Made by a program: the position numbers and the translations under genes. A model generated the notes under the pieces. It had not been told where the DNA came from and made no database searches. It saw only the letters and a program-made list of their open reading frames with translations. DNA of 64,000 nucleotides, from the NCBI GenBank assembly GCA_947167105.1, contig CAMVGU010000007.1:1-64000 (forward strand), given 5' to 3'. This document shows, piece after piece, positions 1,282 to 59,639 of the stretch. The first letter of the stretch is position 1. Each line of letters opens with the position of its first letter. This stretch comes from an uncultured Selenomonas sp. Lineage in GTDB: Bacteria > Bacillota > Negativicutes > Selenomonadales > Selenomonadaceae.

Positions 1282-1330
1282 ATGTCAAAATCCGAAAGAC
1301 AAGTGAACAATTTGCAGAATACCAATCTTC

Positions 1331-1360
1331 TTGCGAAATCTTGAACAATGGCGTTATAAT
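1331..1360 (+). promoter_or_regulatory. Repeat-borne promoter (TTGCGA-N18-TATAAT)
   Basis: This is one copy of a repeat found also at 3721-3899 (minus strand) and 57979-58088. It holds TTGCGA, an 18-bp spacer and a perfect TATAAT. The left arm of the GATTTCGC/GCGAAATC hairpin is degenerate here. The 1360-1526 miniature element begins at the last base of the -10 box, so it was probably inserted just downstream of a promoter that served the 1558 gene. Confidence 0.6.
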
Positions 1361-3136: not shown

Positions 3137-3679
3137 TTACTCACTTGCGGTATTGACTTCCTGCAGGCCGCACAGGGCACCGGCGAAGGCGGCGGCCATG
3201 ATCTGGGCGTTGCGCCGCTTCAGTTTCCTGATGGCGGCCAGTCGGTTGGCAAAGCTTTCTCCACGCTTGAGCAGGCTGAGGTAGATGGCCAGGCTGAGAT
3301 CCCCCCGGAGGGAGGGGTCGGACTCGAAGGAGACCAGGAGCTTGCCCCGTTGCTTGGGCTTTTCGGCGGCAATCATGCCGTTGGAGACAGCCTGCACTAT
3401 GTCATCCTTGACCAGGTCGGCGGTCTGCCAGGCTTTGAAGCAGGCTTTCTTCACCTGCAGGCCGTCCCGCACCATAAAGAAGATGATCAGGGAGCAGACG
3501 GCAAGCACGCTGGGGTCGGCAGAGCTGCGGTGCAGGCAGAAGTCATAGAGCTCTGCCGGGTCGTCGCTTGTCCGCAGGCCAAGCTCGATGGTCTGGGCAA
3601 TGTCCTCGTAGCCTTTTTGGAAGAACATTCCCGCTGCCACCATGCAGCCCCTGGCCCGTTCCATGGTCTGTGCATCCAT
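3137..3679 (-). CDS. Hypothetical cytoplasmic protein
   Basis: A 180-residue, helix-rich protein with no signal peptide and no motif I can name with confidence. The end (RRNAQIMAAAFAGALCGLQ) faintly recalls the GD-hydrolase part of ADP-ribosylglycohydrolases, but the metal-binding aspartates are not there, so that link is weak. Start ATG is preceded by CAGGAGTGG. The -10 box TATAAT lies about 42 bases ahead of the start, inside the promoter-bearing repeat unit at 3721-3759, so expression probably depends on that repeat. Confidence 0.6.
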   Translation of the reverse strand: MDAQTMERARGCMVAAGMFFQKGYEDIAQTIELGLRTSDDPAELYDFCLHRSSADPSVLAVCSLIIFFMVRDGLQVKKACFKAWQTADLVKDDIVQAVSNGMIAAEKPKQRGKLLVSFESDPSLRGDLSLAIYLSLLKRGESFANRLAAIRKLKRRNAQIMAAAFAGALCGLQEVNTASE

Positions 3680-3720: not shown

Positions 3721-3899
3721 ATTATAACGCCATTGTTCAAGATTTCGCAAGGCGAAATCACACAGATTAGCGTTTCAACAGGCGAAGCTTGTTATAACGC
3801 CATTGTTCAAGATTTCGCAAGGCGAAATCACACAGATTAGCGTTTCGACGGCAAAGCCGTCCTAACGCCATTGTTCAAGATTTCGCAAGGCGAAATCGT
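3721..3899 (-). repeat. Three tandem copies of the promoter-bearing hairpin repeat
   Basis: Read on the minus strand, units of about 70 bp each contain the hairpin GATTTCGCcttGCGAAATC, then TTGAACAATGGCG and a -10-like box. The unit nearest gene 3679 has TATAAT (3721-3726), the middle one TATAAC, and the far one is degenerate, so only the proximal one or two should act as promoters. Between copies there is a shared AAACGCTAATCTGTG linker. The same unit is found upstream of the UDP-galactopyranose mutase gene and at 1331. Confidence 0.75.
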
Positions 3900-3925
3900 T
3901 TCTAATAACGAGGGAGGCATTGAAA

Positions 3926-42711: not shown

Positions 42712-42754
42712 TCCGCCCCCTTGGGGGCGGGGGACCGCGTAAGCGGTGGTGGGG
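42712..42754. repeat. REP-like double hairpin
   Basis: CCGCCCCCTTGGGGGCGG followed by GGGACCGCGTAAGCGGTGG. The second hairpin is identical to that at 43240-43290. Lies between the transporter and rhaM. Confidence 0.65.
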
Positions 42755-43239: not shown

Positions 43240-43290
43240 AAGCCTTCCCCTCTGGGGAAGGGGGACCGCGTAAGCGGTGGATGAGGTTCG
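43240..43290. repeat. REP-like double hairpin
   Basis: AAGCCTTCCCCTCTGGGGAA, GGGGGA, then CCGCGTAAGCGG and TGGATGAGGTT. Same layout as 10494-10544. Confidence 0.65.
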
Positions 43291-53784: not shown

Positions 53785-54987
53785 GTGCTGGGGCTTATTT
53801 CTGTATTGTCTTTCCTGGCATTCTCTTGTTCACTGGTTGCAAGTGTTTATTTTACCTACAAAGTCTGGCGGTACAGGTCTACTGCACATGGCAACTATCT
53901 AAACGACGATGAGTATATAAAATTAAAAAAACGACGCGAAATGTCTTGGGTTTCAATACCTATTATTGTTGTTATTTTTATGGGCATTGAAGGTAAAGTA
54001 GGAAAAGAACTTAAAGAAAAAGAAATTTTAATAAAGGCAGAAAATTATGTTGGAGGAGATAAAGAAGTATTTGAGAAGAAATTTGCTGAGTACTCTAAAA
54101 CAATGAAGGAGAGTACTGCGAGAGAAAAGGCTGTAATTTACACGGATAAAATCATGGAAATGAATGAACGTATCAATGGCTTGGAAGGGGAAGATAAGCA
54201 AATCTATTTATCAAAATTTGAAGAATACAAAAAAGAAATGGATGATATAAGCGCGAAAGAAAAAGCACTAAATGCTATGGAAAAGGAAATCGTCAGACGT
54301 AACAAGGAGTTACAAAAGAAATATGACGACCAAAAGCAGTATGAAGAATGGATAGCTTGGCAAGAAGCTGAGAAAGAAAAAACTGAAAAGGCAGAGCTCC
54401 AAAAGAAATATGACGACCAAAAGAAGTATGAAGAGTGGATAGCCTGGCAAGAAGCTGAGAAAGAAAAAGCTGAAAAAGCAGAACTTCAAAAGAAATACGA
54501 TGACCAAAAGAAGTATGAAGAATGGATGGCGTGGAAAAAAAGCGAGGAAGAAAAGAAACAAAAAGCAGAAGAAAAAAAGAGAGCCGGGTTGACGGAACTC
54601 GAAAGAGCCGGTAAAATCACATATTATAATATTGGAAATGATAGTTACAATGTCGTAATCACAGATTCAATCAATCTAACAAATTCTGCATTTGAACGTG
54701 GCGGTATTGATGGCTTGCTTAATATGGCCACACATAACGAGCATGAAAGAAACGCCATACGCGCATCATATCAATGCATGAAACTGGTCGAAACAGTGAA
54801 AGAGGCAAATGTTAATGTCAATCAATTTACTATCAATTTGAGAGGAACTGTAACGGATATGTATGGTAATCGAGGACAAGATAATGTAGTTATCTGTGAG
54901 ATAGGGGGAGGGACAGCATACACCCACGGTGATCCATACGACTTCTACAATAAATGCAGTCGTTTTTGGATGATAAATGGTATGTAG
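53785..54987 (+). CDS. Membrane-anchored coiled-coil protein with 29-residue repeats
   Basis: One or two N-terminal membrane helices (LISVLSFLAFSCSLVASVYF; WVSIPIIVVIFMGI), a long charged coiled coil, then three tandem 29-residue repeats beginning ELQKKYDDQK and containing YEEWIAWQEAEKEK, and a C-terminal globular domain of about 130 residues (AGKITYYNIGNDSYNVVITD onward). The codon usage is clearly AT-richer than its neighbours, and the gene is bracketed by 88-bp direct repeats, which points to acquisition or rearrangement. GTG 53785 behind AGGGGTG; GTG 53776 is also possible. Function unknown. Confidence 0.68.
   Translation: MLGLISVLSFLAFSCSLVASVYFTYKVWRYRSTAHGNYLNDDEYIKLKKRREMSWVSIPIIVVIFMGIEGKVGKELKEKEILIKAENYVGGDKEVFEKKFAEYSKTMKESTAREKAVIYTDKIMEMNERINGLEGEDKQIYLSKFEEYKKEMDDISAKEKALNAMEKEIVRRNKELQKKYDDQKQYEEWIAWQEAEKEKTEKAELQKKYDDQKKYEEWIAWQEAEKEKAEKAELQKKYDDQKKYEEWMAWKKSEEEKKQKAEEKKRAGLTELERAGKITYYNIGNDSYNVVITDSINLTNSAFERGGIDGLLNMATHNEHERNAIRASYQCMKLVETVKEANVNVNQFTINLRGTVTDMYGNRGQDNVVICEIGGGTAYTHGDPYDFYNKCSRFWMINGM
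54310..54570 (+). repeat. Three tandem 87-bp repeats inside the coiled-coil gene
   Basis: GAGTTACAAAAGAAATATGA, GAGCTCCAAAAGAAATATGA and GAACTTCAAAAGAAATACGA start successive units of 87 bp. The first two are nearly identical and the third has diverged. Copy number could change by slippage or recombination without breaking the frame. Confidence 0.8.
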
Positions 54988-57921: not shown

Positions 57922-57978
57922 TCAATTATCTTGCATCTGAGAGGGAAAATGTTGAGTTTTCTCGCTGGAAACTGGAAT

Positions 57979-58088
57979 GATTTCGCGTTGCGAAATCTTG
58001 AACAATGGCGTTATAACTCGTTATAACTCGTCGAAACGCTGATTGGAATGATTTCGCGTTGCGAAATCTTGAACAATGGCGTTATAAT
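57979..58088 (+). repeat. Two copies of the promoter-bearing hairpin repeat ahead of glf
   Basis: Each copy has GATTTCGCgttGCGAAATC followed by TTGAACAATGGCGTTATAA. The downstream copy gives TTGCGA (58059) and TATAAT (58083) with an 18-bp spacer, 45 bases before the glf start. The upstream copy ends TATAAC. The same unit lies at 1331 and 3721-3899. Confidence 0.75.
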
Positions 58089-58132: not shown

Positions 58133-59260
58133 ATGTATGATTACCTGATTGTGGGCAGCGGTCTTTTCGGTGCTGTCTTTGCCCATGAGATGCGGGCGCG
58201 GGGGAAGTCCGTGCTGGTGCTGGAGAGGCGCCCTCACACGGGGGGCAATATCTACTGTGAGGAGCGGGACGGCATCCGGCTGCATAAGTACGGCGCCCAT
58301 ATTTTTCACACTTCCTATCAGGATGTCTGGGAGTATGTGAATAAATTCGTGGAATTCAATAACTATGTGAATTCGCCGGTGGCAAATTTCCGGGGGGAGC
58401 TTTACAACCTGCCCTTCAATATGAATACCTTTACAAAGCTCTGGCCGGATGTGCGCACCCCCGCTGAGGCCGAGGCGAAAATCGCGGCGGAGCGTGAAGC
58501 GGCGGGCATCGGCGAGCCGGAAAATCTGGAGGAACAGGCCATCAGCCTGATCGGACGCACCATCTTCGAGAAGCTTATCCGGGGCTACACGGAAAAGCAG
58601 TGGGGACGTAGCTGCAAGGAACTGCCGGCCTTCATCATCAAGCGCCTGCCTGTGCGCCTGACTTTCGATAATAATTATTTCAACGATCGCTGGCAGGGCA
58701 TTCCCATGGGAGGCTACAATAAGCTGACGGAGGCGCTGCTGGAGGGCGTGGAAGTGCGCACGGGAGTGGACTATAATGAGCCGGCCGTGCGGGCGGCCTA
58801 TCAGGGACAGGCGCAGACAGTGGTCTACACGGGCCTGATTGATGAGTATTTCGGCGGGCGCCTGGGCCGCCTGGAGTACCGGGGCCTGCGCTTTGAGACG
58901 GAGGGGCTGCCGGAGCAGAACCATCAGGGCGTGGCGGTGATGAACTACACGGAGCGGGAGGTGCCCTACACCCGCAGCATCGAGCACAAGCATTTCGAGC
59001 CGGAGGACAGGAAAGCCTTCGAGCAGGCCGTGACCTATGTCACCCGTGAATACCCTGCCGACTGGCAGCCGGGGCAGGAAGCCTACTATCCGGTGAATGA
59101 CGCCCGCAACCAGGAGCTCTACCGGCAGTACGCGCAACTCGCCGCAAACGAGCAGGGCGTTATCTTCGGCGGCCGCCTGGCGGAGTATCGCTACTACGAT
59201 ATGGACGATGTGGTCAAGAGCGCCCTGGAGTGCGTGGAGAAGTTTGTCCAAATTTCTTGA
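58133..59260 (+). CDS. glf: UDP-galactopyranose mutase
   Basis: Converts UDP-galactopyranose to UDP-galactofuranose with reduced FAD. The flavin motif YDYLIVGSGLFGAVFAHEM starts the protein, and GGNIYCEERDGIRLHKYGAH, IRGYTEKQWGRSCKEL and EYRYYDMDDVV are family segments. 375 residues from ATG 58133; AGGAGG lies eight bases upstream, while ATG 58124 abuts it. It should provide precursor for cell-surface galactofuranose. No glycan genes are adjacent. Confidence 0.95.
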   Translation: MYDYLIVGSGLFGAVFAHEMRARGKSVLVLERRPHTGGNIYCEERDGIRLHKYGAHIFHTSYQDVWEYVNKFVEFNNYVNSPVANFRGELYNLPFNMNTFTKLWPDVRTPAEAEAKIAAEREAAGIGEPENLEEQAISLIGRTIFEKLIRGYTEKQWGRSCKELPAFIIKRLPVRLTFDNNYFNDRWQGIPMGGYNKLTEALLEGVEVRTGVDYNEPAVRAAYQGQAQTVVYTGLIDEYFGGRLGRLEYRGLRFETEGLPEQNHQGVAVMNYTEREVPYTRSIEHKHFEPEDRKAFEQAVTYVTREYPADWQPGQEAYYPVNDARNQELYRQYAQLAANEQGVIFGGRLAEYRYYDMDDVVKSALECVEKFVQIS

Positions 59261-59285: not shown

Positions 59286-59307
59286 TGTAATGCAAACTGA
59301 ATATGGT

Positions 59308-59472
59308 AGGAAGCAGGTGCTCACAGAGCTTAATAGGGAATCCGGTGCAAAGCCGGAGCGGTCCCGCCACTGTGAGGGGGAGTCTTGCGCATTATGTCAC
59401 TGGGGTAGATATGCGTACCTTGGGAAGGCGTGCAGGGCGATGAAGCCAAGCCAGGAGAACTGCCTGCTTTAG
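59308..59472 (+). ncRNA. Cobalamin riboswitch
   Basis: The conserved core is present: AATAGGGAATCCGGTGCAA, AGCCGGAGCGGTCCCGCCAC, TGTGAG, then later GAAGCCAAGCCAGGAGAACT. P1 is closed by AAGCAGG (59311) with CCTGCTT (59463). It controls a cobalamin-dependent mutase operon, so repression or alternative regulation by adenosylcobalamin is expected. Confidence 0.93.
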
Positions 59473-59639
59473 CATCACCGTTGGCGCATCGGTTGTCTGG
59501 TGCGTCGTGCCTGCGAGCGATGGGTAGGGGATTGAATCTAGGCGTTATGGTCCTGGCAAGGGAGCGTTTATTCGGGGGAGCACTGCGTTTGTGGCAGTGC
59601 TTTTCGGAGGTGCTCCCGGGGTTGGGCTGCAAGCATGAG

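Follow-up and report, generated by a model that had tools for sequence, protein, structure and literature searches.

The repeats that recur in the window (the whole 64-kb stretch of Selenomonas DNA analysed here) probably belong to a family of small, non-autonomous, TATAA-bounded elements with two hairpins, of which the insertions that supplied a promoter would have been kept. The strongest result, and the one least expected, is an apparent capture of native -10 boxes seen by sequence comparison: the terminal TATAA of the element lies on the native -10 of the orthologous promoter, with the leader intact, at five genes (murE, cheY, tsaE, ACT and activase).

Aligned copies give the full element as TATAA-L-GA-R-TATAA, in which L and R are two hairpins and the ends are TATAACG and CGTTATAA. 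Two sizes occur, about 70 bp (A type, the form found in tandem in the window) and 140 bp (B type). The R module is a two-step hairpin, AACGCT-GATTGGAAT-GATTTCGC-NTT-GCGAAATC-TTGAACAAT-GGCGTT, and the L hairpin, 5' of it across the GA joint, is short in the A type (e.g. AACAAGCTTCGCCTGTT); in the B type it forms, by computed fold, a long branched structure (AACGAGGC...CCCCCACTTCTACAAGTGGGGG...GCGGGAGCATATCTCCCGCCTCGTT). Among 91 two-ended copies, for which the search patterns fixed some of the letters counted, T precedes the left ATAA in 85 and the right end reads TATAA in 90. Single-module palindromic forms were found at C25:13268 and C3:1453 of the source genome, and a lone left module at C2:46966. 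At three further loci of that genome (G000:C9:1137, C16:16404 and C13:24099), an extra module (AGGGACTAGCTTTCGCGTCG) splits the R module ahead of GCGTTATAA.

The R hairpin is well supported by covariation. In an alignment of 98 matches, 67 of them distinct rows, standard pairs fill 96% of the pair cells, and cells altered on both sides number 112, where shuffled controls give 30.6 and slid ones no more than 12. Being fitted to the model, this alignment is biased in its favour; an earlier, unfitted alignment with fewer rows agrees. The outer stem takes either of two forms, AACGC./.GCGTT or AAGGC./.GCCTT, the inner stem occurs as GATTTCGC, GATTTGCC, GCTTTGTC, TTTTGCC and others, and G-U pairs are tolerated on the element strand. 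No known RNA family reached its gathering threshold over the repeats.

In the window, the core TTGAACAATGGCGTTATAA gave six matches, one of them with 2 mismatches, and none in 100 dinucleotide shuffles, confirming the repeat at the three places where a sequence-only reading had seen it: 1341-1359, 57998-58016 and 58069-58087 on the plus strand, and 3722-3740, 3792-3810 and 3860-3878 (the last with the 2 mismatches) on the minus strand. The 39-bp unit with an 8-bp stem proposed in that reading forms part of a longer repeating unit that holds two hairpins, the tandem spacing being 70/68 bp and 71 bp. On the minus strand, the gene-proximal R module (3721..3776), with TATAAT at 3721-3726 and the -35-like TTGCGA at 3745-3750, faces a minus-strand gene (3137-3679) whose start lies 42 nt beyond the -10. 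It is joined by the short L hairpin AACAAGCTTCGCCTGTT (3777..3793) to a middle R module (3791..3846) that ends in the junction TATAAC, and a second short L hairpin, GACGGCTTTGCCGTC (3847..3861), leads to a distal partial R module (3859..3910) ending in TAGGAC. On the plus strand, a distal R module without its outer 5' arm (57962..58017, ending in TATAAC) is joined by the short L segment TCGTTATAACTCGTC (58018..58032) to a gene-proximal R module (58033..58088), with TTGCGA at 58059-58064 and a TATAAT (58083-58088) 44 nt upstream of the start of glf (58133-59260). At the third place, what remains of an R module is its right half (1330..1360, plus strand; 3' arm, core and TATAAT): the core and TATAAT reported for the copy at 1331 are there, but the hairpin is not, because the 5' stem arm is missing, and another inverted-repeat element of about 167 bp separates this copy from its gene. 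At every place the copy nearest a gene does carry a TATAAT directed towards it. The distal boxes (TATAAC, TAGGAC and TATAAC), however, had been misread as degenerate -10 boxes: since tandem copies share a TATAA and the ATAAC pairs with GTTGA, TATAAC is the normal junction to the following hairpin and not a decayed -10.

The description of the repeat as dispersed, amplified and mobile is borne out by copy counts, by sharp copy-number variation within a genus and by filled and empty sites. In the source genome (3.15 Mb in 66 contigs), where copies were gathered by search and region by region, we counted 13 exact cores, 44 matches to a 26-nt version of the core with at most 3 mismatches (none for the reversed-pattern control), and 81 matches at E<=0.1 or 71 at E<=0.001 to an R-module covariance model that stops short of the -10 box. 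The five other genomes of the genus that were searched hold 18-76 matches each. A survey of 81 genomes of the order, from 23 genera, found the element in 30 of the genomes and 10 of the genera, at 0 to 70 copies per genome, and among the matches listed the exact core in named genomes is mainly from Anaerovibrio and Selenomonas ruminantium. Near-identical (young) copies occur together with diverged (old) ones. Phage seems an unlikely vector, with only 5 exact-core matches in viral contigs. We found no earlier description of the repeat in Selenomonas or Anaerovibrio in the open-access literature, subscription papers being outside the scope of the search.

Mobility is seen in two related Anaerovibrio genomes, in which the filled site of RM50, ...CCAGCAA-TATAA-(135 nt)-TATAA-TAATTC, corresponds to the empty site ...CCAGCAA-TATAA-TAATTC of LB2005, with 96% identity and the element as the only gap. 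In three further filled/empty pairs the empty relative reads TATCA, TGTTA and AATAA; therefore one element is added per event, at a 5-mer like TATAA. The element has TATAA on both flanks even where the relative's target differs, so part of the TATAA may be borne by the element, and a plain duplication of a 5-bp target is only one possible reading. Short, non-coding, multi-copy and mobile, the element has the general features of a MITE. Terminal inverted repeats in common with a parent IS were not found, the two ends sharing only about ATAACG/CGTTAT. Neither inverted pairs nor the left end led to an autonomous IS with these ends: no transposase lay between right-end pairs in the loci retrieved, and the left-end search reached no larger element. 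An IS200/IS605 Y1 transposase found no support as the mobiliser: the family has no match in G003, G008, G009 and G010, which carry copies, and is missing from several genomes rich in copies. The sole Y1 transposase of the source genome is part of an element of IS605 type that also has TnpB. An excised circle would carry the joint CGTTATAACG.

A consensus scan found TTGCGA-18-TATAAT (10/12 positions) at 3750-3721 on the minus strand and 58059-58088 on the plus strand, the sole promoter-like site on the relevant strand near either repeat, and its spacer of 18 bp falls within the 16-18 bp of sigma-70 hexamers. The earlier suggestion that the hairpin overlaps the -35 box holds for TTGCGA, which overlaps the hairpin loop and 3' arm; TTGAAC cannot be the -35, because it lies just 8 bp from TATAAT. 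Among 39 distinct variants in the source genome, 74% match TTGACA at four or more of six positions at spacer 18, and the other spacers between 12 and 23 reach no more than 8% each; the hexamers themselves differ (TTGCGA, TCGACA, ATGGCA, and TTGACA itself in the C53 copy). The common Anaerovibrio variant has GAAGAA at this position, which is not promoter-like, and many of its copies lie just past stop codons, ahead of terminators. As judged from these hexamers, the right end of the element resembles a sigma-70 promoter.

Palindromes that overlap -35 regions are typical of operators, and the repeat might accordingly be read as the operator of a single regulator, spread across a regulon by selection instead of transposition. 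We regard this as very improbable, as the stem varies with compensation (GATTTCGC, GATTTGCC, GCTTTGTC, TTTTGCC) in a manner that a sequence-reading protein would not tolerate, the downstream genes are functionally unrelated, and the empty sites show insertion of the whole element. It also seems improbable, if somewhat less so, that the hairpins act in RNA, in processing, stability or attenuation of read-through, and that the likeness to a promoter is secondary. The strong covariation, the tolerance of G-U on the element strand and the many RM50 copies after stop codons would all suit such a role, but a promoter-like gene-proximal -10 some 30-60 nt ahead of the start codon would leave the hairpin outside an mRNA begun there, and no T run follows the hairpin at 58033-58088.

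The promoter-like reading of the right end gains support from the orthologous promoters. At murE, the genomes that lack the element have in common a native TATAAT, behind which the leader contains ACGGyCCGC, and in G012, G017, G011, G023 and G030 the terminal TATAA of the element sits on this box, followed by ACGG..CGC or ACGGTTyGC. At this gene G011 and G017 have lost the L hairpin and kept the -35/-10 part, and G023 and G030 have kept both, L with a compensatory change from ACGAG/CTCGT to CCGAG/CTCGG. At tsaE, G004 reads GTGCTACAATAATAAATTAAACGGAGACT, and G001, G002 and G003 carry differing element variants that end in TATAAT, with leaders 3' of the element closely resembling that of G004. 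The elements of the source genome 5' of the ACT-domain gene and the activase gene lie on the native -10 of relatives, and the cheY element lies on the native -10 with a small shift. When leaders alone were aligned, with the -10 excluded from the alignment, a native -10-like box was found within 3 nt in 4/4 relatives for ACT, 3/3 for activase, 4/4 filled genomes for tsaE, 3/4 for cheY and 16/18 pairs for murE of G012/G017/G011; the check fails at typA and at the murE copies of the source genome and G103.

Placement relative to genes, called with a simple in-house caller, was also informative. In spacers between genes of the same direction, the element is oriented towards the downstream start in 22 of 25 cases in the source genome and 43 of 54 in its relatives (p = 8e-5 and 7e-6 against 50%). 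Antisense copies in equal number, which the sequence-only reading had named among the things that would refute it, are hence not what is seen, but the ratios do not exceed a leading-strand bias of 75% (p = 0.10 and 0.27), and we rejected orientation alone as proof of a promoter because such a bias could account for it. Start-codon spacing, TATAAT status and the capture of native -10 boxes support a promoter more strongly. With distance windows chosen after the data were seen, 18 copies out of the 35 that have TATAAT and face a start are 30-65 nt from the start codon, a position that random placement within the same spacers would give to 5.9, and 24 of 36 TATAAT copies lie 30-100 nt from the start, compared with none of the 8 copies without the final T (p = 7e-4). 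Young copies have TATAAT in 13/24 cases and promoter position in 4/22, with 7 in convergent spacers; the figures for old copies are 35/42, 20/32 and none. This contrast is as expected if the elements landed broadly and those insertions that made promoters were then retained.

The same young copies, mostly off promoter position and several of them in convergent spacers, would also fit a purely selfish hairpin element favouring AT-rich intergenic TATAA, whose promoter likeness would be a by-product of the target motif and whose placement would follow solely from its removal from genes, as would the Anaerovibrio variant without a -35-like box. We consider this unlikely, though it is the rival reading to which we give most weight: TATAAT at promoter distance is overrepresented among old copies, the -35-like hexamer is held at spacer 18 across differing loop sequences, and the R part has outlasted the L hairpin at murE. 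The mobile promoter cassette of the sequence-only reading was largely right in outcome, the repeat being mobile and its promoter-like end directed at genes, and wrong in its unit and in the meaning given to the distal boxes.

We propose that the family, an L hairpin, GA and an R hairpin with TATAA on either side, patchy across Selenomonadaceae-type genomes, would insert at TATAA-like 5-mers, and tandems would arise when a new element enters an older copy at its TATAA end. At the right end, a -35-like hexamer precedes the terminal TATAA by 18 bp. Because a two-hairpin element of this kind targets TATAA, the -10 may often pre-exist: where the target is an existing -10, the gene would keep its own -10 and leader and receive a new upstream half from the element; at any other target that has T as the following base, a new promoter could form. 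Many insertions would decay, and those giving a useful promoter would be retained. The sequences establish structure, mobility, a TATAA-like target, placement and the coincidence with native -10 boxes; use of these promoters by RNA polymerase, and their retention by selection, are what we infer. It is possible, though we put it forward only tentatively, that the -10 box of promoters is the very target of the element, and that its TATAA end and spaced -35 swap the upstream half while the promoter is spared. If true, this would be a promoter-sparing and promoter-rewiring strategy of transposition. Small promoter-bearing repeats are already known, usually as adding promoters; in this case the ends of the element match the commonest bacterial promoter motif, and at five genes it lies on the native -10 with the old leader kept. 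It would offer a testable case of a parasite entering housekeeping promoters (murE) without killing its host, and of promoter swaps in evolution.

Among known systems, the CREE of Neisseria are mobile repeats of about 105-155 bp, with about 120-250 copies per genome, many of them 5' of genes, whose ends can form sigma-70 promoters and which have long terminal inverted repeats from TATAG[CT]GGATTAA and a TA target (PMC2649163, PMC10969869). The present element is likewise a short mobile repeat, and consensus and placement would fit a promoter formed at its end. It lacks the CREE ends and the TA target, having TATAACG and CGTTATAA with only about ATAACG/CGTTAT shared and a TATAA-like 5-mer as target; its body consists of two hairpins that differ from each other, and it leaves the native -10 in place. 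PATEs of Haloquadratum are short and transposase-free, with near-terminal palindromes that match IS605-type ends and no long terminal inverted repeats (PMC3119063). Near-terminal palindromes without long terminal inverted repeats are found here too, but a match to IS605 ends is not established and several carriers lack the Y1 transposase family. The element would be Correia-like in working and is PATE-like in build, with full membership of neither. MITEAba12, BrickBuilt and QMITE1 are short mobile repeats with sigma-70-like promoter sequences (reviewed in PMC10969869); they differ in ends and host group, and no parent IS was found for ours. REP/BIME sequences with RAYT transposases are dispersed intergenic hairpins, sometimes arrayed (PMC2817692), as are the present repeats at times, whereas the source genome has no RAYT candidate, its only Y1 being of the IS605 type with TnpB.

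Several other repeats and features were noticed. The element of about 167 bp right behind the TATAAT of the 1331 copy spans 1362-1528 of the window, is distinct, and has the terminal inverted repeats GGAAACGCTGATTAA / TTTAATCATCGTTTCC; a B copy at G000:C8:38762-39056 has a nested element like it (GGGCGTGTTGATTAA...TTAATCAACACGCCC, with TA on either side). Two adjacent related genes occupy 1-305 and 397-1281, the second of which, a YhgA-like gene (PF04754), adjoins the 1331 repeat and repeats positions 1-56 of the window in its 3' end (1199-1254). A cobalamin riboswitch lies at 59298-59481, in the interval between glf and the next gene, and a partial glf copy, 99% identical, was found about 8 kb downstream of the first (G000:C7:66149-66980). 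Three 87-bp tandem repeats at 54307-54567 are apparently coding. A different dispersed, GC-rich hairpin repeat (CCCCCTTGGGGGCGGGGGACCGCGTAAGCGGTGG) occurs at 42716-42749 and 43247-43280 and also adjoins several copies of the main element.
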